From positions 152,816 through 216,815 of the IMG/VR virus record IMGVR_UViG_3300044700_000691: a stretch of DNA of 64,000 bases; one strand, given 5' to 3'. Below the pieces are notes generated by a model. That model had not been told where the DNA came from, ran no database searches, and saw nothing but the letters and a program-made list of their open reading frames with translations. How positions within the stretch are numbered: the stretch's first letter is position 1; each line of letters opens with the position of its first letter. This document shows, piece by piece, positions 15,598 through 51,445 of this stretch. The translations under genes and the position numbers were made by a program. The DNA is from a virus.

Positions 15598-17211
15598 TTA
15601 CTTTTTATTTAAATTTTTATAAAAGCTAGTAAAGTCTAAAATATTTCTATTAGCTTTTTTAGATTTCTTTGGTTGAAAATTATCACCAGAACCTGGTGAA
15701 GTTTGAGTTGGCGCAATTGGATTACCCATGCCGCCGATACTTGCTGGTGTTTGCATTGCTACACCTGGTGATGCAACATCCTCTTTAACTTGACCGGATC
15801 CAACTTTAGTTGCTCCTTTAATTTTACTTTGTGGTGCATCTAGTCCGCTTTCTGCACTTGTAAATAAGAAGCGTGTCCACTTTTCAGCTTTTAATTGAGC
15901 CTCTTTACCACCAGTCACCTTGGCAGTTCTTGAAATGGTTCTTCCAATAATAGGTAAAGTTGCTTGTCTAAATCTTGCGAGTTGAGCTCCAAGATTCTTT
16001 TGCTCTTCTCCTTGATATTCGACAGTTGCCGATAGCGTACCAAGATAGGTTCCAATCTTTAGTAGATAATTAATTCGGCTGGAGTCTAACATTTGTTTAG
16101 ACGTAATTGCAATTTTAGTTCTTTCAAATAGAGGAAGCTTAATTTCTGGAGAATAGGCAACTCCCTTATAACGACTTATGTCAAGGTCAGTTTTATATTT
16201 TCCAAGACGAGTCCTTGCCTCTAAGTATGCCTCAATTGCCTCAACCATATATTGTTTCTTGGCCGAATCGTCGAGAGTCTGTAACATAGTTCGACGTTTT
16301 GTAATAGCATCAATTTCGCCTCGCTCATCCGTCATAATCATAATACGAACTTTTACAAATTGAGACTCTAATGTATTTAGGTCTGGCCAATTTCTAAGTT
16401 CTTCGATTGCATTTCTAATAATAACGTCACGTTTAACTAATTTCTCAGCCTTACCGCCAGTTCGCTTATTAAAATCCTCTGACGATTTCTTGAAGTCGTC
16501 AACATCATTATCCATTTCCGTTTGAACTTCTTCCCATTCAACATCAATAATATCTGGTTCAGGCTTCTTTTTATCCTCATCTTTATTTGAAAAGTCTGAA
16601 ATAATATAGGCTACCTTTACCGAGTCTTCTGCTGTTTTTCTAAAGTCTTCAGAATCTGCAGTCGTACCATCCATTTTTTCCTTGGCAGAGCTAACTAATG
16701 TTTTAGTAACCTCAGCTTCAGTTTTCTTTTGATCAGTAAATGAAATTTTAATTTTATCAAGCAGGTCATTAACCTCGGCTGTCCAATTGCTCTCCTCAAT
16801 GGTTTGATATGCTTCCCATACAATAGCCATTCGACCTTTGTATGCTCGTATTCTCTCTAACTGTAATTCAATGTCTTCGCCATCTTTAATCATTTGATCA
16901 AGAACTTCGGTTTCAATTTTTAAAGTTTGAGAAATAAAATCAATATACTTATTTAAAATATCAATCCATTCTTTATTAAGAAAAGCTTGGCTTAATTGCT
17001 GAAGAACCTGAGGATCAGTCTTTGCCTTATTTAAAATATCATTTTCGATAAGTCTTGATAAAAACTCATCGACCTTCTTCATGATATCCTCCTCCTTTTT
17101 ATTGGAGCCTTTGGCAAATGTGATAATATCAGAAATTTCATTTCCAATAATAATTAATTCAGATTCTAATAGAAGCTGTTCGAGGATATGTATGTGTTTA
17201 AATTTCAGCAT
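15598..17211 (-). CDS. 537-aa virion candidate ending in a capsid-N-arm-like segment and tag-like peptide
   Basis: A long, mainly helical, charged protein (residues 1-330 are rich in Glu/Lys heptads and probably coiled coil). Residues 481-514 align with the mature N-arm of the major capsid protein: about 18 of 34 positions are identical, including GMGNPIAP versus GIGNPLAP and GSGDNF versus GSGDKF. The last residues (NILDFTSFYKNLNKK) look like the capsid tag placed at the C-terminus. This suggests a head-associated protein that mimics or competes with the capsid N-arm, or a core protein bound to the shell. No named family. The start abuts the Dps-like gene's stop. Confidence 0.75.
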   Translation of the reverse strand: MLKFKHIHILEQLLLESELIIIGNEISDIITFAKGSNKKEEDIMKKVDEFLSRLIENDILNKAKTDPQVLQQLSQAFLNKEWIDILNKYIDFISQTLKIETEVLDQMIKDGEDIELQLERIRAYKGRMAIVWEAYQTIEESNWTAEVNDLLDKIKISFTDQKKTEAEVTKTLVSSAKEKMDGTTADSEDFRKTAEDSVKVAYIISDFSNKDEDKKKPEPDIIDVEWEEVQTEMDNDVDDFKKSSEDFNKRTGGKAEKLVKRDVIIRNAIEELRNWPDLNTLESQFVKVRIMIMTDERGEIDAITKRRTMLQTLDDSAKKQYMVEAIEAYLEARTRLGKYKTDLDISRYKGVAYSPEIKLPLFERTKIAITSKQMLDSSRINYLLKIGTYLGTLSATVEYQGEEQKNLGAQLARFRQATLPIIGRTISRTAKVTGGKEAQLKAEKWTRFLFTSAESGLDAPQSKIKGATKVGSGQVKEDVASPGVAMQTPASIGGMGNPIAPTQTSPGSGDNFQPKKSKKANRNILDFTSFYKNLNKK

Positions 17212-23402: not shown

Positions 23403-24965
23403 TTGCTAAAGTTTAAGTTAACACCAGATAAAAGATATTTTCAATTAATACATAATGACCTTAAAAAAGAACTGGTTGATCTTAAGAACTTTTTTAAAAA
23501 ACGAGCTAAAGGCTATCACTTCAGTCCGCTATTTCAGCGTCGCCTTTGGGACGGTTACGATAAATTTATTGATCGTGAAAACCGAATTGGCGTAGGGTTA
23601 TGGTATCAAATCAAACAGTTTAGCCAAATTTATGGTCATGAAATTGAGTTAGATGGCTTAGATTCTCTGCTTAATCTTGAATTTACAAAGGATCAACTTG
23701 ATAAATTTGCAAGCGTCCTATTAGATGGAGTTGATCTTACTCCATACGATTACCAAATGGAAGCTGCCTACCGTGCACTTAAATTTAAGTTTAGCGCTCA
23801 GGAATTAGCAACATCAGCCGGTAAAACCCTAATCCTATTTTTATATCTAAGTTTCCTTAAACGTAAGGGAATTATTAATGGTAAAGATAAAAAGGCTCTA
23901 ATCGTAGTGCCTAATATCTCACTAGTTGGCCAAACTGCAGAAAAATTTATGAAAGACTATCATACTGGTCTAATTAACTGGAATATCCTTGAAGTTGGTG
24001 GTAAAAACAAATACTCAGACAAGAAATTTGAAGATGCTGACCTGGTTATTTCAACATATCAAAGTTTAGCAAAACGCGATGGAGATTTTTTTAAGAAATT
24101 TACCGTACTGTGTATTGATGAGTGCCATACTTCAAGAGGCGATACAATTAAAGATATTCTTCTAGCCTCAACCAATGTTGAATATAAGCTGGGTCTATCT
24201 GGAACAATTCAAGTAGATGAAGATTTTTCTGATTTCTATAAAATCCAAGAATACATTGGCCCTCTAAGCATGACTCTTAAATCAAGCTTTTTAATTGAAA
24301 ACAAACATTCGCCTGATGTTTACATCAAGATGCTTTTCTTAAAATATCCTGAAACTGAACCTTTTATCCAAAACTATAAGTATATGCAGGAGCACGGTAA
24401 AAGTCAATTTCATCGTATTGAAGACTATGGCAAAAACATGTTTCAAATGGAAAAGGATTTTATTATTTCATATGAACCGCGTGTAGATTTTATTTCGTCA
24501 CTAGTCCAAAAACTAGGCGGCAACTCACTGATACTATTCATTAATGTGAAGGACAAATATGGTCAACGTATTAAAGAAAGAATTTTAGAATGGAATCCAA
24601 ATTCATTCTATATTGATGGTGAAGTAAGTGGAGATCATCGAGCCGAATATAAAGATGCAATGGAAGCTGGGTCTAATGTGGCCCTAGTTGCAAGCTATGC
24701 AACCTTTGCGACTGGTATTGACTTAAAGAATGTGCAAAATATTATTTTTGCAGAAAGCTATAAATCTGAAATTACTATTCGACAAGCAGTCGGTCGTGGA
24801 ATGCGAAAGTTGGCTGGAAAAAGCAAGGTAACAATTTACGATCTAGTTGATGATCTAAGTGGTTATATTGTAAAGCACGGTAAAGTTCGTGAGAAAATTT
24901 ATGAAAAGGAACAGTGGATTGTGTCTAAACACAGCTACGATTTAAGTAAATTTCTTAAGGATTAA
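23403..24965 (+). CDS. uvsW: UvsW-like SF2 helicase
   Basis: 520 residues from a TTG start (MLKFKLTPDKRYFQLI). Residues 1-100 match the UvsW N-terminal domain (GYHFSPLFQRRLWDGYDKF parallels the FNPRFR...WDGR of T4). Helicase motifs: Q-motif region LTPYDYQMEA (112-121), Walker A ATSAGKT (136-142), DECH (239-242), motif III GLSGT (264-268), motif VI RQAVGRGMRK near 466. UvsW unwinds R-loops and branched DNA and switches T4 to join-copy replication. It ends 4 nt into the convergent gene at 24962. Confidence 0.93.
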   Translation: MLKFKLTPDKRYFQLIHNDLKKELVDLKNFFKKRAKGYHFSPLFQRRLWDGYDKFIDRENRIGVGLWYQIKQFSQIYGHEIELDGLDSLLNLEFTKDQLDKFASVLLDGVDLTPYDYQMEAAYRALKFKFSAQELATSAGKTLILFLYLSFLKRKGIINGKDKKALIVVPNISLVGQTAEKFMKDYHTGLINWNILEVGGKNKYSDKKFEDADLVISTYQSLAKRDGDFFKKFTVLCIDECHTSRGDTIKDILLASTNVEYKLGLSGTIQVDEDFSDFYKIQEYIGPLSMTLKSSFLIENKHSPDVYIKMLFLKYPETEPFIQNYKYMQEHGKSQFHRIEDYGKNMFQMEKDFIISYEPRVDFISSLVQKLGGNSLILFINVKDKYGQRIKERILEWNPNSFYIDGEVSGDHRAEYKDAMEAGSNVALVASYATFATGIDLKNVQNIIFAESYKSEITIRQAVGRGMRKLAGKSKVTIYDLVDDLSGYIVKHGKVREKIYEKEQWIVSKHSYDLSKFLKD

Positions 24966-40323: not shown

Positions 40324-40989
40324 TTACTTAACTTTGAACTTAAATCCGGTGATTTTTTCGATTCGGGCTACAGTAACTTCATTATTCTGCATACCATCTG
40401 ATTTGTCAGTGGTGTTTGCAAATAGGTAAGCATGCCATTCTTTTTTAGATTTAATGTAGATAACTTTCCAGCAATGTGTAGGAACAGCTGTGCCTTTACC
40501 AATAGTTTTTGCAACTCCAATATTGCCGCACCATACTTTAACTGAATCTGCAACAGCTGCAGTTTGACGAGTATAGGTCTCTAGCGATTTCCAGTCTCCA
40601 GCGTTTAGCGAATGGTATTGTGCTGCCATATTTGAAAAATAGAAACATTCGTCCTGTACAGCTTGACTTTGGCAAAGATTATCTGCAGCTGGCATCATAT
40701 GACCCCGGTCAGTTCCTGATCCAACAAAATCTGCTGCAATATTAGTTTCATTTGGAAGAAGCGGATCTGGTTTAAATACATCCTTTCTCTTAAGTGGAGT
40801 AGGGCAAGTTACCATTGCTTTAGTTGTCCACCATTCTATAATAACAGGGTACTTTAGCGATTTTGAAAAAACTGCTGTGTAGTTTGTATGCTTTAGTCTA
40901 ACTGTATCAGTAGTAGCAAATTTAATTTGGGTCTGTGCTGATGCTACCGCCGGTAACAAAAATAGCAAAATATAAAATATACGTTTCAT
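40324..40989 (-). CDS. Exported DNA/RNA non-specific endonuclease (NucA family)
   Basis: 221 residues with a clear Sec signal peptide (MKRIFYILLFLLPAVASAQT, cleavage probably after ASA). The catalytic DRGHM motif lies at 94-98 (His97), followed by NMAAQYHSLNAGDW (Asn120 metal ligand, Asn129, Trp133), the standard beta-beta-alpha-Me nuclease layout. It should degrade DNA and RNA in the periplasm or outside. Roles could be recovery of nucleotides, removal of competing phage DNA or clearing lysis debris. An exported nuclease next to thymidylate synthase suggests nucleotide scavenging, which is inference. Confidence 0.9.
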   Translation of the reverse strand: MKRIFYILLFLLPAVASAQTQIKFATTDTVRLKHTNYTAVFSKSLKYPVIIEWWTTKAMVTCPTPLKRKDVFKPDPLLPNETNIAADFVGSGTDRGHMMPAADNLCQSQAVQDECFYFSNMAAQYHSLNAGDWKSLETYTRQTAAVADSVKVWCGNIGVAKTIGKGTAVPTHCWKVIYIKSKKEWHAYLFANTTDKSDGMQNNEVTVARIEKITGFKFKVK

Positions 40990-40997
40990 AGGAATAT

Positions 40998-41243
40998 TTA
41001 TTCCCCTGATTTAACTATTTCAATTAGGATGCCAGCTTGACCTGCTGAGATATTATATGTATTAAATCTATTATCATGGATCCAGCCATAATCCTTAAAC
41101 TTAAATAAGATACAGTCCTTACCCTCAAACCAAACATGAATTGCATTTGTTGCATAATCGATCGACGGCTGAGTGATTACTCCCGCTTTCCAGCTGTCCC
41201 TAAATTCTGGTTCAAATTCGCCTGGTGATATTAATATATGCAT
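40998..41243 (-). CDS. Hypothetical protein, 81 aa
   Basis: 81 residues (MHILISPGEFEPEFRDSWKA...), beta-rich with WFEGKDCILFKFKDYGWIHD. It sits between the secreted nuclease and thymidylate synthase genes. No signal peptide and no recognised family. Confidence 0.6.
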   Translation of the reverse strand: MHILISPGEFEPEFRDSWKAGVITQPSIDYATNAIHVWFEGKDCILFKFKDYGWIHDNRFNTYNISAGQAGILIEIVKSGE

Positions 41244-41272: not shown

Positions 41273-42526
41273 TTAATTACTTAAGGGTGCTTTAATTGAT
41301 GGGTGAGATTTATATCCTTTTACTTTAAATGTAATATCCGGGTCAAACGTATTAATAATTTCATCCAATTCTAGTAAGTGCCAATTTTCATTTCCTGAAT
41401 TTATTTCTAATTTAGGTAGATAGAAGGCCTCACGATCTTTAACTCTTGGAATACCCCACTGGTCGATTTCTGAATGCGATAGGGTACTAGGATCTCCTCC
41501 ATTATAGATTTCATTAAACATTTCTTGGGTAACCATCTTGCGTCTTTCGTCTAGACTATATTGATATCCAATTTGCTCGTTTGCTGCGTTTAGGTGATTT
41601 AAGTAGAGATGTGTATCACCAAGACTTCCTACTAATTGATCAGGCACCATGTTAACCATCTTTGCAATAATCTCCAATAGCAATCCATATGAGGCAATAT
41701 TAAAAGGTAAACCTAAGAACGTATCAACTGAACGTTGATTCCACATTAAAGAGATTGATCTTTGTGGAGTTGATTCATGAAAAGCTCTTTCTGTAATAGC
41801 AAGATTCTCTAACTCAACATCAGTGTTCTCCATTACCCATTTAATTCTTTCCGCAATAGTTAATTCCTTTGTGTAAACTTGAAATCCATAATGACAAGGT
41901 GGAAGAACCATTTGGTCTAATTCACCTACATTCCAAGCATTAACCATTAATCGTCTTGAGTCTGGATTTGTTTTAAGTTCGTTGATTAGGTTTGCGATTT
42001 GGTCTATACTTGTTTCATATACTCCAGGTTCAACAATCTTTTCGTCTCGTGTAGTTTTTCTAACCCATTTTCTCCATTGCTTACCATAGATTGGACCTAA
42101 CTCACCCCATTTCTTAGCAAACTCATCATCGGTTTTGATTTTGTCAATGAATTCTTCCATTGTAAATGGTTCAGTTAATGTTCTATTTTTCTTAGAATTC
42201 TCTAATAATTTGGTTTTACCAACATATTCACCTTTATTATATCTTTTAATATAGGCTTGGTAAGCATCACCGTTCCAGATGTTGCAATTATTGTCAACCA
42301 GGTACTTAATATTAGTATCTCCTCGTAGGAACCAAATTAACTCAGTAACCATGGTTTTCCATGCCATTTTCTTGGTCGTTAAGAGAGGAAACCCATCTTT
42401 CATATTGTGTCGAACTGTGTAACCAAAAATACTTAAGGTTCCAGTACCAGTTCGGTCGCTCTTTTCAGCTCCATGTGTTAGGATTGTCTTAAGCAAATCC
42501 GTGTATTGTGTATCTAGCTTGTTCAT
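41273..42526 (-). CDS. thyA: Thymidylate synthase
   Basis: 417 residues from ATG 42524-42526. Makes dTMP from dUMP using methylene-tetrahydrofolate. Motifs: DRTGTGTLSIFGYTVRHNM (24-42), substrate Arg pair at 191-192 (PDSRRLMVNAWN), catalytic Cys211 in LPPCHYGFQ, and NQRSVDTFLGLPFNIASY. The enzyme is about 150 residues longer than the usual 264 because of two insertions, around residues 95-140 and after the catalytic site (about 225-250). It overlaps the stop of the HAD gene region by none (1 nt gap). Confidence 0.94.
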   Translation of the reverse strand: MNKLDTQYTDLLKTILTHGAEKSDRTGTGTLSIFGYTVRHNMKDGFPLLTTKKMAWKTMVTELIWFLRGDTNIKYLVDNNCNIWNGDAYQAYIKRYNKGEYVGKTKLLENSKKNRTLTEPFTMEEFIDKIKTDDEFAKKWGELGPIYGKQWRKWVRKTTRDEKIVEPGVYETSIDQIANLINELKTNPDSRRLMVNAWNVGELDQMVLPPCHYGFQVYTKELTIAERIKWVMENTDVELENLAITERAFHESTPQRSISLMWNQRSVDTFLGLPFNIASYGLLLEIIAKMVNMVPDQLVGSLGDTHLYLNHLNAANEQIGYQYSLDERRKMVTQEMFNEIYNGGDPSTLSHSEIDQWGIPRVKDREAFYLPKLEINSGNENWHLLELDEIINTFDPDITFKVKGYKSHPSIKAPLSN

Positions 42527-42527
42527 A

Positions 42528-42893
42528 TTATTTAAATACTTTAATTTTAGCGTCAACTTCTGTTAATTCTGACCAGGTTCCAAGATAGGTTACTGCTCTA
42601 ACCTTTCTATTGTCAATCCAAACATATTCTTGGTCGTCCTTGATTCTTGGCTTATCCATTACTAATCCATGATAATTAAAACCATTAGTCTTTAACCAAT
42701 TTTCAGTAACTTCCCGGTCCTTGCCTTCACGAGCAGTAAAAAATGTAATAATATGACCTTCACCATACCATTGATTAATAATTGCTAACGAATCTGGATA
42801 AACCTTAGCCGTTGAGTATAAATGAGACTCTTCGTTTTTAATATCTTCGCAGATTGTTCCATCTATATCGATTAAAAAAACTTTAGTCTGCAT
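42528..42893 (-). CDS. Small HAD phosphatase
   Basis: 121 residues. Motif I FLIDIDGTICED (Asp9, Asp11), motif II FFTAREG, and motif IV WIDNRK near residue 92. It is the size of a minimal HAD hydrolase and resembles LNS2/5'-nucleotidase-like proteins. Placed next to thymidylate synthase, it may act on nucleotides. It overlaps the upstream 65-aa gene by 11 nt. Confidence 0.78.
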   Translation of the reverse strand: MQTKVFLIDIDGTICEDIKNEESHLYSTAKVYPDSLAIINQWYGEGHIITFFTAREGKDREVTENWLKTNGFNYHGLVMDKPRIKDDQEYVWIDNRKVRAVTYLGTWSELTEVDAKIKVFK

Positions 42894-44457: not shown

Positions 44458-45501
44458 TTAGAACCAATTTCTTGGATCAGCTTTCTTTGCAGCTTTTTTC
44501 AATTCGTTAGCTGCTCTATTTGCTAAATCTTCTGCTTCTCTTGCTGCTTGTTCAGCTGCACGTTTAGTTTCTTCTGCTACTCGTTGTGCCTCTGCTGCAG
44601 TTGCTCTAGCTGCTTCATCTGCTAATCTCTTAGTTTCAGCGGCTTGTCTTTCTAATTCTCTAGCTGCGGCTGCTGCTTGCTCATCGGCAATACGCTTAGC
44701 ATCTTCAGCTACTTTTCTAGCTTCTTCAGCTGCGGCCTTTGCAATACGATCAGCTTCTTCTGCTGCTCTTTGTGCCTCAGCTGCTGCAACTGCTGCTGCT
44801 CTTTGTGCTTCAGCTGCTGCGATCTCAGCTTGTCTATGAGCTTCTTCTGCTGCCTTTTGCGATTCGGCTGCTACTAGTGCAGCGTCTTCTGCTATTTGAT
44901 TTGTATCAATACTTACACTTAAGTCAACATCAAGACCAACTAAAACTGCTACTTCACCGCTAACTCCGATTGTTGCAACTCCATCTACATAAGTAGCTTC
45001 GCCACCTCCACCGATTCCAACTTGTTCTCCAACCGATACTCCTGCACCAGCTGTAACTGAGCCTTCTCTTAAATCAACTGTTCCTTCTCCATCTACTCCT
45101 ACTGATGTTCCTGCTGATACGCTTCCATTTGCTACTACACCTTCATCACCTGCTCTTACTTCAAGGCTAGCTTCGTTTCCGGTTTTAACATAGGCATCTA
45201 CTGTACCACTAGCACCAAATCCTTCAGCATTGGCTTGACCTTCTACTGTGATATGAGCTTCAGTTGTATCTGAATAATTTGCTTCTACGTAAACGTTATT
45301 TCCATCTAATCCACCTTCAACTGATGCTTCAGTTCCAGTTTTAACAGATACTTCAATACCTATCGAGGCATTTTCATCTCCTGTTGATACTCCTGCAGAT
45401 GCAGTTGTTGTAGTATCAATTGATGCACCGCCTGAAGTTCCATCTGAATGTACTTCGGCTGAATTGTTGTTCTCAAAATTTGAGTTTGTTTCTGTTGACA
45501 T
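44458..45501 (-). CDS. Gly/Ser-rich beta plus Ala-rich coiled-coil protein, 347 aa
   Basis: Residues 1-200 are acidic, Gly/Ser/Thr/Val-rich repeating beta sequence (GVSTGDENASIGIEVSVKTG-like units; GVDGEGTVDLREGSVTAGAG). Residues about 205-335 form a long Ala/Glu/Lys coiled coil with many A-A-x-E-A-Q-R-A repeats, like TolA domain II, ending PRNWF. Looks like a fibrous or surface-attached virion protein or a TolA mimic. There are no catalytic motifs. It lies between the YkuD-like and membrane-protein genes. Confidence 0.6.
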   Translation of the reverse strand: MSTETNSNFENNNSAEVHSDGTSGGASIDTTTTASAGVSTGDENASIGIEVSVKTGTEASVEGGLDGNNVYVEANYSDTTEAHITVEGQANAEGFGASGTVDAYVKTGNEASLEVRAGDEGVVANGSVSAGTSVGVDGEGTVDLREGSVTAGAGVSVGEQVGIGGGGEATYVDGVATIGVSGEVAVLVGLDVDLSVSIDTNQIAEDAALVAAESQKAAEEAHRQAEIAAAEAQRAAAVAAAEAQRAAEEADRIAKAAAEEARKVAEDAKRIADEQAAAAARELERQAAETKRLADEAARATAAEAQRVAEETKRAAEQAAREAEDLANRAANELKKAAKKADPRNWF

Positions 45502-45808: not shown

Positions 45809-46192
45809 TTATCTTTTTCCTTCATGAACTACCTTTAGTCCATCATTTCTGTCAATATACATGTATTCACATGATACTAAGCCAAATTCGTCAATGTGGT
45901 CTAAAACTTCGTCCGCTGAAAATTCAGAACATGAGTAAATATCAAATTGAAAAAACGCTGGATTGGGTTTATCCCAAACGTGAATTGCTGCATGTGATGT
46001 AGCTAAGGTAACTGTACCAGTAATACCTTCATTTCCAGGTTCATCTACATAAATTGAAGATGGACCAGCAACAACTACCATTCTTACCTTTTTAACAAGA
46101 TCAGTTAACCACTGATTTAAAATAGTTTCATCTTTTGGAGGGTTTTGAATATAGCCTCTTACTAAAAGATGAAGATGATTAGGGGTGAACAT
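45809..46192 (-). CDS. S-adenosylmethionine decarboxylase-like (SpeD) protein
   Basis: 127 residues. ATSHAAIHVW (Ser66, His67, His71) resembles the pyruvoyl-serine site of SpeD (SHxxIH), with Ser and second His five residues apart as in T. maritima (Ser63, His68). The following FFQFDIYSCSEF has Cys88 in the position of the SpeD catalytic Cys, two residues further. The cleaved Glu before Ser is Thr here. SpeD makes decarboxylated SAM for spermidine synthesis. Whether self-cleavage occurs is unknown, and a diverged non-enzymatic role is possible. Confidence 0.6.
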   Translation of the reverse strand: MFTPNHLHLLVRGYIQNPPKDETILNQWLTDLVKKVRMVVVAGPSSIYVDEPGNEGITGTVTLATSHAAIHVWDKPNPAFFQFDIYSCSEFSADEVLDHIDEFGLVSCEYMYIDRNDGLKVVHEGKR

Positions 46193-46209: not shown

Positions 46210-47034
46210 TTATTTTAATAAATTGTAATATTCGTTAAAGTGTTTAATACGATCATCAAGACCGATTGTTCCACCATTAACTCTTTTGGTTACCGCTGTA
46301 ACAGTTGCAGTATCTGCGCCTTTATCACAAATTGACCAAAGTTTATTTGAATCAAAAAAGAAAGCTGCAGAAGCTAAAGGATATTTAGTTGCAACTAGAT
46401 CTGGATTAACAACTGTATCTTCACCAATAAATTTAGCAAAGTTAGTGTAATTTGATTTTCCTGTTAATTGGATATAACCTCTACCACGGAATTTGAAACC
46501 TTCTTTAGAAGCTTCATTACCATTACCCATACGATCTGCATAAACTCTTGAAGCAATCTTCTCTGGTTGACGAGCATAAGATTCGTTTAAGTTACCAGGG
46601 AAATATTTACCAAAGATTTTTTTAAGACCATCTGCTGAGTAATTAACGTTTTCGCTAACTGCTTTAAATCCGCCACTTTCATGACCACATTGTGATAAGA
46701 AGTGAGCTAGACGTAAATTATTAGTAATATTGAATTTAGCAGCTGTATCTGGAATTTGTGCAATAACTGAATCAGGAATATGACCTTTAAGCGCAGCTAA
46801 TTTAAAAGCAGAAGCTGGGATTGCCACAGCTGGTGCTGCAACTGATTCGCTAATTCCTAATTTTGCAAGTGTAGTAGGGCCAGCAATACCATCAGCAGTA
46901 AGACCATTTGCGGTTTGCCATGCTTTTAATTTTGCCTCTGTACCAGGGCCAAACGATCCGTCTGAACCCGCTCCTAATTTTTCTTGAAGTTTTTTAACTA
47001 AGTCTCCGGTAGAACCGACTTTAAGTACTGACAT
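46210..47034 (-). CDS. Endolysin: peptidoglycan-binding domain plus GH19 muramidase/chitinase-like domain
   Basis: 274 residues. Residues 1-62 are a PG_binding_1 domain (VGSTGDLVKKLQEKL; DGSFGPGTEAKLKAWQ; DGIAGPTTLAKLG). Residues about 88-270 are GH19-like: catalytic Glu119 in CGHESGGF, Glu128 in SENVNY, and RGRGYIQLTGKSNY. Cuts peptidoglycan glycan strands at lysis. No signal peptide, so release needs a holin. A second GH19-like protein, tagged for the capsid, is at 62681-63622. Confidence 0.93.
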   Translation of the reverse strand: MSVLKVGSTGDLVKKLQEKLGAGSDGSFGPGTEAKLKAWQTANGLTADGIAGPTTLAKLGISESVAAPAVAIPASAFKLAALKGHIPDSVIAQIPDTAAKFNITNNLRLAHFLSQCGHESGGFKAVSENVNYSADGLKKIFGKYFPGNLNESYARQPEKIASRVYADRMGNGNEASKEGFKFRGRGYIQLTGKSNYTNFAKFIGEDTVVNPDLVATKYPLASAAFFFDSNKLWSICDKGADTATVTAVTKRVNGGTIGLDDRIKHFNEYYNLLK

Positions 47035-49558: not shown

Positions 49559-49663
49559 TTAAAATTTACCCCATCCACTGCGGTGACGATTTTCTTCAGC
49601 TATCTTAAAGCCTAATAGAATCTCTTTGCAGATTTTTTTAATCTTATTAATTATATTCTTCAT
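49559..49663 (-). CDS. Small basic protein, 34 aa
   Basis: ATG 49661-49663 overlaps the TGA stop of the IMPDH gene (ATGA), a coupling signal. The 34-residue product (MKNIINKIKKICKEILLGFK...) starts as an amphipathic basic helix and ends RHRSGWGKF. No homology known; overlap and location support a real gene. Confidence 0.55.
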   Translation of the reverse strand: MKNIINKIKKICKEILLGFKIAEENRHRSGWGKF

Positions 49664-50733
49664 AGTAAGTGTGGTTTTGCTTCTGTTTGACCAGCATTAG
49701 TTATTTGTACCCATTTTGGGTGGTATTTTGCAAGAGAGTCAGCTCCAGCATAGGACAGAGCAGATTTAACTCCATCAATAAGGCCCTCTACTATAAATTT
49801 AACTCCGCCTTTGTATGGAATAATTGTTGATTCGCCTTCAACATTTCGTTGAGCTTGACCATGAACGGTTTTAGTTTCTAAAGAAGCTGCGCCTCTATAT
49901 CTCTTATACAAACCAGTTGACTTTTCAACAATTTGACCAGGACTCTCATGTGTTCCAGCTAAGAGTGAACCTAGCATTACTGAACTTGCTCCTAGTGCTA
50001 GGGCTTTTGCAATATCGCCGCTTGTTTTAATTCCGCCATCTGCCATTACTGGAGTTTTTGCAACTGAAACAATATCACTGATACAGGTTACGTTTGGAAT
50101 ACCAAAGCCAGTCTTAATTCTGGTTGTGCAAAGAGAACCTCCACCAATTCCAACTCGTAAGCCGTCTGCTCCCCATGATTCTAAGTCTTGAGCTGCCTCG
50201 GCCGTTGCAATATTTCCTGCAATAATATCAACGTGTTCAGGTAAATTTGCCTTACACCATTCGATCATGACCTTTACATTTATGTGATGGCCGTGTGCAA
50301 CATCAATTAAGAGGATATTTGCGCCTGCTTCAACTAGGGCCTTTGCTCTATCCATATCACTTGCCATTACACCAATTGCCGCCATAATTGGAACCTGTTT
50401 AATTTCAGCGTGCCAATCATCATACATAATTCCCCAATCTTCATATGGACCGCCGAATCCATCACCATATATTTTATAGCTCAACAATTTAACCTGATTG
50501 GCCTGCTCTTCAATTGACATAAATCTGTGAATACAGCCAACTCCGCCTAGGAGAAATAGCCTAAATGCCATTTCTAATTCGCATACCGTATCCATCGGTG
50601 AAGCAACTAGAGGTCGCATCAAGCCATATCGACGGCTCACTAGTGTATCTAATTTAATAGTTTGACGACTTGATACTTCAGAATAACCTGGTACCAATTG
50701 GATATCATCATATGTAAGAGCAGTCTTATTCAT
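49660..50733 (-). CDS. IMP dehydrogenase / GMP reductase-type enzyme without CBS domains
   Basis: 357 residues from ATG 50731-50733. TIM-barrel NAD(P)-dependent enzyme: LTYDDIQLVPGYSEV at the N-terminus, catalytic loop GGGSLCTTRIKTG (Cys202), MADGGIKTSGDIAKALALGA, and MLGSLLAGTHESPG. IMPDH makes XMP from IMP and limits guanine nucleotides; GMP reductase runs the reverse step. A PYKGGVKFIVEGLIDGVKSA segment and the flap RYRGAASL favour IMPDH. The regulatory CBS pair is missing: only about 30 residues occupy that site (82-115). A phage copy may escape host nucleotide feedback. Confidence 0.88.
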   Translation of the reverse strand: MNKTALTYDDIQLVPGYSEVSSRQTIKLDTLVSRRYGLMRPLVASPMDTVCELEMAFRLFLLGGVGCIHRFMSIEEQANQVKLLSYKIYGDGFGGPYEDWGIMYDDWHAEIKQVPIMAAIGVMASDMDRAKALVEAGANILLIDVAHGHHINVKVMIEWCKANLPEHVDIIAGNIATAEAAQDLESWGADGLRVGIGGGSLCTTRIKTGFGIPNVTCISDIVSVAKTPVMADGGIKTSGDIAKALALGASSVMLGSLLAGTHESPGQIVEKSTGLYKRYRGAASLETKTVHGQAQRNVEGESTIIPYKGGVKFIVEGLIDGVKSALSYAGADSLAKYHPKWVQITNAGQTEAKPHLL

Positions 50734-51445
50734 TATCTGTAAATTTAACAAAGGTTATTTCATTAGTAATAGGGTCCCAATCGAATGTTACCGGTTTATT
50801 AACATATTCATAGTATTCATTTAGGATTGATACATTAAACCAGTGAGTGGTTCCATCAAACTTATAACCAGATCCACCGTGAATATGTCCACATACATGA
50901 ATTTTAGGTTTAACTTTAGATTGATCGATATGATTTCTCAATAGTGGACAACCTAAATTTGGTTCGTTATATGGAGGACCGCTTGTATCTAAATGACCTT
51001 GAGCTGGCCCGTGTGTAACTAAAATATCAGTATTAGTTGGAATTGCAGCCCATTTAGCAGCTAACTCTTCTCCTTGACGAGGAAGATTGAATGCCCAATT
51101 GTGAAATTCTGGTTGCCAAGGACTACCGTAGATTTTAGCTGTTTCATTATCATCTCCGACTTCAATTGTACTATCTTGCAAATAATCAATCCACTTATAA
51201 GAATTAACAATTTCCATTGATTTCTCTGGAAAATCTTCAAACATGCGGTCATGATTACCTGCAATAAAAATTTTATGGTCATATTGATCTAGTCCATCAA
51301 ACCATTTACAGAAACTGGTAATATCACCAGGATTACGTCCTGAATTCATGATATCTCCAGCATGGATTAGTAAGTCTCCACCCGGTAAATCATTGGTTAC
51401 CTCATGGTGTTTTGTGTGCGTGTCAGAAATTAACGTTATTCTCAT
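50726..51445 (-). CDS. Metallophosphoesterase (calcineurin-like)
   Basis: 239 residues with all metal motifs: SDTHTKHH (7-14; Asp8, His10), HAGDIM (Asp31), AGNHDRM (Asn, His), THGPAQGH and CGHIHGG. Binuclear-metal phosphoesterase with unknown substrate; candidates are nucleotides, phosphodiesters or RNA ends. The stop overlaps the IMPDH start, suggesting a nucleotide-metabolism link. Its own TATAAT promoter lies about 30 nt upstream after a terminator. Confidence 0.88.
   Translation of the reverse strand: MRITLISDTHTKHHEVTNDLPGGDLLIHAGDIMNSGRNPGDITSFCKWFDGLDQYDHKIFIAGNHDRMFEDFPEKSMEIVNSYKWIDYLQDSTIEVGDDNETAKIYGSPWQPEFHNWAFNLPRQGEELAAKWAAIPTNTDILVTHGPAQGHLDTSGPPYNEPNLGCPLLRNHIDQSKVKPKIHVCGHIHGGSGYKFDGTTHWFNVSILNEYYEYVNKPVTFDWDPITNEITFVKFTDNE

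Follow-up and report, generated by a model that had tools for sequence, protein, structure and literature searches.

Why would a large virus of bacteria carry a non-specific nuclease provided with an export tag, and on which DNA would such an enzyme act once outside the cytoplasm? The question is raised by one gene in a 64,000-nucleotide stretch of DNA (positions 152,816 to 216,815 of IMG/VR virus record IMGVR_UViG_3300044700_000691; hereafter the window), which, as judged by sequence comparison, belongs to a large virus of Bacteroidota-type bacteria.

Phage, gene and nuclease family

The virus record holding the window comprises 216,815 bp (216.8 kb). A T4-type major head protein, a head maturation protease and a portal protein are encoded in the same window as the nuclease, and further window genes code for an endolysin, a thymidylate synthase and a ClpA/B-like ATPase. 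As neither a tyrosine nor a serine integrase was found in the 216.8-kb record, a lytic phage is favored and the prophage reading was dropped, with the caution that the record is possibly fragmentary. The MAG contigs with the nearest relatives are those of Chitinophagaceae and other Bacteroidota; the phage host probably belongs to the same phylum. The nuclease gene corresponds exactly to an ATG-initiated open reading frame of 221 codons for amino acids, as confirmed by an ORF check of the window:

40324..40989, minus strand: coding sequence of the predicted exported DNA/RNA non-specific endonuclease (221 aa; Pfam, PHROG, PDB and AF2 matches)
40699..40710, minus strand: DRGH motif, residues 94-97, with the general-base His97 (R95, G96 and H97 invariant in 51/51 relatives)
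40630..40632, minus strand: N120, active-site Asn of the SN-M/I-xxQ segment (alignment of relatives)
40603..40605, minus strand: N129, predicted Mg2+ ligand (alignment; invariant in 51/51)
40579..40581, minus strand: E137, active-site Glu (alignment; invariant in 51/51)

The Pfam profile search assigned residues 21-219 of the protein to PF01223 (E=3.9e-36; 125.2 bits versus a curated cut-off of 23; profile positions 7-217 of 223 covered), PHROG 14168 (“nuclease”) was matched at 3.1e-22, and the PDB matches were EXOG, EndoG, Serratia nuclease and Anabaena NucA. An AlphaFold2 model built from 51 of the protein's own relatives reached a mean pLDDT of 91.4; Foldseek comparison of this model retrieved EXOG (E 6e-17) and NucA (TM 0.81, rmsd 1.9), and the modeled structure has the betabeta-alpha-Me nuclease fold. 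R68, R95, G96, H97, N104, N120, Q124, N129, W133 and E137 are identical in all 51 aligned relatives, which argues for an intact active site (N129 we take to be the Mg2+ ligand and E137 the active-site Glu, as in the family generally); cutting of both DNA and RNA would be expected from membership in PF01223. The mature part of the protein is under strong purifying selection (omega (dN/dS) 0.05-0.11 in close pairs). The initial annotation had described a full signal peptide followed by an intact NucA-type active site: the latter is borne out by the PF01223 match and the invariance of R95, H97, N120, N129 and E137, the former by the AxA/Q signal at the N-terminus.

Export signal and cysteines

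The N-terminal sequence MKRIFYILLFLLPAVASA, followed by QTQ at the predicted mature end, consists of a K/R-containing n-region, a hydrophobic core and an AxA/Q c-region. By heuristic scan and inspection, the protein thus has the n/h/c organization and AxA site of a Sec/SPase-I substrate, with no second transmembrane segment and no lipobox Cys.

40936..40989, minus strand: signal peptide, residues 1-18, predicted cleavage ASA/Q (sequence, heuristic scan, kept in full-length homologues)
40804..40806, minus strand: C62, one half of a putative conserved disulfide (51/51 relatives)
40672..40674, minus strand: C106, the other half of the putative disulfide (51/51 relatives)

Signal-peptide prediction had been proposed as a check by the initial annotation, and the prediction came out in its favor: when all 544 frames of the 216.8-kb record were scanned by a simple heuristic, complemented by inspection, the nuclease ranked second-best of the 11 ORFs that scored. 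The full-length ORFs among the 80 loci kept from the IMG/VR relatives likewise begin with a signal-like segment that ends before a conserved Q/D start; their signal sequences have diverged, each homologue having its own hydrophobic N-terminus, and retention of such a segment despite sequence drift is not expected by chance. In close pairs, the signal part appears relaxed (dN/dS 0.3-1.5, an imprecise value as only about 20 codons are compared), and the combination of a constrained mature part with a relaxed signal part is, at the sequence level, the pattern of a cleaved signal. Loci that appeared to be signal-less (match from residue 28) were rejected as such, their ORFs carrying a different signal; three MAG contigs (L088, L089, L097) had no clear signal and were set aside as distant. 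The export signal is thus well supported, with cleavage and a periplasmic location as predictions. A C-terminal T9SS sorting domain is absent (no NCBIfam match): the nuclease domain (21-219 of 221) reaches the end of the protein, and the periplasm is therefore the predicted place.

C62 and C106 are invariant, and the distant immuto and LR756504 proteins have cysteines near both positions; a C62-C106 disulfide formed outside the cytoplasm is therefore likely.

Two further ORFs with signal-like N-termini were observed in record G000. One (23477-23959, minus strand; L100:3477-3959) codes for 160 aa with a very strong signal peptide (MLRHFLIIIILFFITNWANA, followed by Q), a weak match to PHROG 1365 and no Pfam match, and represents a second predicted exported phage protein; the other (15963-16364, minus strand; L099) codes for 133 aa with the N-terminus MKKQILTILTCLASITVFS, followed by Q, and has no family match.

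Relatives and evolutionary history

In IMG/VR, 187 stretches matched the query patterns, 184 of which encode a relative; 51 relatives entered the residue alignment. Well over 100 other viral contigs thus encode the family, with the export tag kept in those examined, which marks it, on sequence grounds, as a real and widespread phage trait. In the tree, the phage nucleases form a supported clade (96/98) beside the secreted nucleases of Bacteroidota, a homologue being present at 1e-10 in 96 of 297 sampled Bacteroidota genomes; three MAG contigs fall inside the phage clade and may be phage contigs. Remote homologues with signal-like starts are encoded by unrelated large phages, i.e. RaK2-type Klebsiella phages, Xanthomonas XaC1, Yersinia GN1/YerA41, Sinorhizobium Phosso, Flavobacterium immuto and a 636-kb uncultured phage; most of them already bear a nuclease annotation, which in two members of the RaK2 group includes the word “periplasmic”. 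Their position in other branches suggests more than one capture, with the reservation that their long branches make the placement unsure. A match in the Acinetobacter “phage” MD-2021a (L143, CAKLQH020000003.1) was not counted: with kup, aqpZ, hisF and thrB as neighbors of nucA, the record looks like host chromosome mislabeled as phage.

The initial annotation thus goes too far in its premise that an exported nuclease is unusual for a phage, since exported homologues recur in several unrelated large phages, mostly under an existing nuclease annotation, besides the more than 100 viral contigs with the family. Phage-borne exported PF01223 nucleases are already known as a kind, to which the present gene belongs; the signal is kept throughout its large phage-specific clade.

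Gene neighborhood

The nuclease gene is one of a long series of genes on the minus strand; the following neighbors are relevant to its context:

40998..41243, minus strand: 81-aa ORF directly upstream (8-nt gap), no Pfam/PHROG match, probably co-transcribed
46210..47034, minus strand: GH19 endolysin, encoded on the nuclease strand and 5.2 kb upstream of the nuclease gene (context only; single place in the record)

Across 98 loci, the upstream neighbors belong to 32 different families and the downstream neighbors to 37, so that no conserved partner or inhibitor gene could be retained, and the neighbor is antisense to the nuclease gene upstream in 40 of 95 and downstream in 48 of 95 cases. The lack of a fixed partner together with the frequent antisense neighbors suggests a self-contained, stand-alone accessory (moron-like) gene. 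A GH19 endolysin is encoded within approximately 5 kb in four of the seven largest arrangement groups; none is in reach in the largest group (26 loci). As thymidylate synthase and another neighbor recur in some of the groups, these are not independent; a consistent lysis operon was rejected, the endolysin being near in some arrangements only and these sharing ancestry. The PADLOC defense-system models gave no match for the nuclease.

Several other genes of the window deserve mention, all on the minus strand. The thymidylate synthase (41273-42556) is, with 427 aa, above the usual size, its Pfam match being spread over 17-330 in a manner suggesting insertions; an alanine/glutamate-rich protein of 347 aa with coiled-coil-like AEAQRAAEEA repeats and no family match (44458-45501) adjoins holin-like and endolysin genes; an S-adenosylmethionine decarboxylase-like protein (phrog_3125, 3.3e-12) is encoded at 45809-46192 and an IMP dehydrogenase/GMP reductase family enzyme (PF00478, 1.2e-99) at 49660-50751. 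In one group of relatives (L062:5647-5901, L073:5647-5901, L079:5641-5895, L080:5645-5899), a small thioredoxin-like protein (WCxPCK) is encoded directly downstream of the nuclease.

Proposed function

For a nuclease family member that by sequence comparison combines an intact active site, a conserved export signal and purifying selection with membership in a phage-borne clade, we tentatively place one reading first, with somewhat less than even confidence: a barrier nuclease of the periplasm, which would degrade DNA on its way through the envelope, whether of superinfecting phages, plasmids or transforming DNA, and would also be released at lysis. The enzyme would be made in the host cytoplasm during infection and threaded out unfolded by the Sec machinery; after cleavage behind ASA18 it would fold in the periplasm, where the C62-C106 disulfide can form. 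No inhibitor protein would then be needed to spare the cytoplasmic DNA of phage and host. Any DNA or RNA in the periplasm could then be cut, including stalled DNA of superinfecting phages and incoming plasmid or transforming DNA, so that competing genomes would meet the enzyme as a barrier in the envelope; lysis would also free it into the lysate. The principle is shown by endonuclease I of E. coli, which degrades superinfecting T4 DNA in the periplasm. The initial annotation had considered superinfecting phages and biofilm DNA as targets, roles that we likewise infer as possible. Several points speak against a barrier: most tailed phages shield their DNA across the periplasm, so that a nuclease lacking a partner that stops injection may achieve little, and no such partner was identified for the present enzyme; a similar gene is common in Bacteroidota (96/297 sampled), where nutrient acquisition is a usual explanation; and the endolysin genes within approximately 5 kb in several arrangements fit a role in lysis at least as well. 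The literature search found nothing directly on phage-encoded exported nucleases in superinfection.

Clearance at lysis, in which the periplasmic enzyme digests released host and extracellular DNA, lowers viscosity and frees virions from debris or biofilm matrix, is the alternative to be taken most seriously, though we regard it as rather unlikely: an exported enzyme would be set free at lysis whatever its main role and a GH19 endolysin lies nearby in the four arrangement groups named above, but these share ancestry and the largest group lacks it. Moreover, the YerA41 homologue is apparently a middle- rather than late-expressed gene, which fits action before lysis: g167 (“Endonuclease”) of YerA41 is listed as a middle-class gene and carries the particle-associated mark (PMC7354516), its correspondence to the homologue YerA41_018 being deduced from gene order. 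The same mark, together with the annotation of YerA41_018 as “phage particle associated protein”, would agree with an enzyme that is packaged into or stuck on virions and works at the cell surface when the phage enters. We consider this quite improbable, as a secreted nuclease can co-purify with particles, a signal peptide is not expected for a packaged protein, and a text search of the main text of the RaK2 virion paper gave no mention of a nuclease.

The presence of thymidylate synthase and IMPDH/GMP reductase in the window and the commonness of such secreted nucleases in Bacteroidota would be compatible with nucleotide scavenging, i.e. periplasmic digestion of DNA and RNA as a supply of nucleosides for replication of the large phage genome; however, the gene neighborhood is not conserved and the main nucleotide pool, the host chromosome, is cytoplasmic, which makes this explanation unlikely. 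That the N-terminus stays uncleaved and the protein degrades host DNA as a cytoplasmic or membrane-anchored enzyme would correspond to the common site of action of phage nucleases inside the cell, but is very improbable given the family-wide retention of the signal, the SPase-I-like c-regions and the Q-start of the mature end; a non-specific nuclease inside would also attack phage DNA and RNA.

A generalization of the barrier reading is possible but doubtful: widespread, phage-dedicated, disulfide-stabilized periplasmic nucleases might provide large lytic Bacteroidota phages with a general barrier to DNA in the envelope, directed at phages, plasmids and transformation alike, a superinfection exclusion based on a nuclease and not on blocked injection that evolved several times in unrelated large phages. 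If a barrier exists, many large lytic phages would have a simple, non-specific means of closing the periplasm to rival DNA, which would affect superinfection and gene transfer as well as extracellular DNA in communities rich in Bacteroidota. As signal-bearing nucleases recur in unrelated large phages, the question of their role could be put directly to the test with a single gene and a single catalytic mutant.

Comparison with known systems

The superinfection exclusion proteins Spackle and Imm of T4 likewise represent a phage-made envelope barrier to a second infection, and Spackle resides in the periplasm after cleavage of its signal (PMC7677548); in contrast to the window protein, neither is a nuclease, lysozyme or DNA passage being blocked instead. 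Fold and active site are shared with Anabaena NucA, Serratia nuclease, EXOG and EndoG; these, however, are cellular enzymes, and NucA is accompanied by the cytosolic inhibitor NuiA, whereas no inhibitor gene was noted in the phage. The nearest cellular relatives in the tree, the secreted PF01223 nucleases of Bacteroidota, mostly have hydrophobic N-termini too, but are chromosomal, the phage sequences forming a separate supported clade. The “periplasmic DNA/RNA non-specific endonuclease” of RaK2, K64-1 and Muenster (Alcyoneusvirus) is also an exported nuclease of large phages, yet differs from the window protein in sequence (24% identity), in its motif (DKGH versus DRGH) and in its tree branch.

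Closest in kind are the Campylobacter prophage nucleases CJE1441 of CJIE4 and CJE0566 of CJIE2, which, like the window protein, are phage-borne, of PF01223 type and have a signal-like N-terminus. The CJIE4 copy shares 27% identity over 115 aa with the window protein, and equivalents of H97, N120, N129 and E137 are present. CJE1441 belongs to a temperate prophage, and the block of natural transformation is reported for CJE1441, whereas the window protein is known from its sequence. According to the account in PMC3995785, as far as its statements citing Gaasbeek 2009 and 2010 go, CJE1441 is expressed and functional and its host is non-transformable; by analogy, the CJIE4 nuclease is the nearest experimental precedent for a barrier role.
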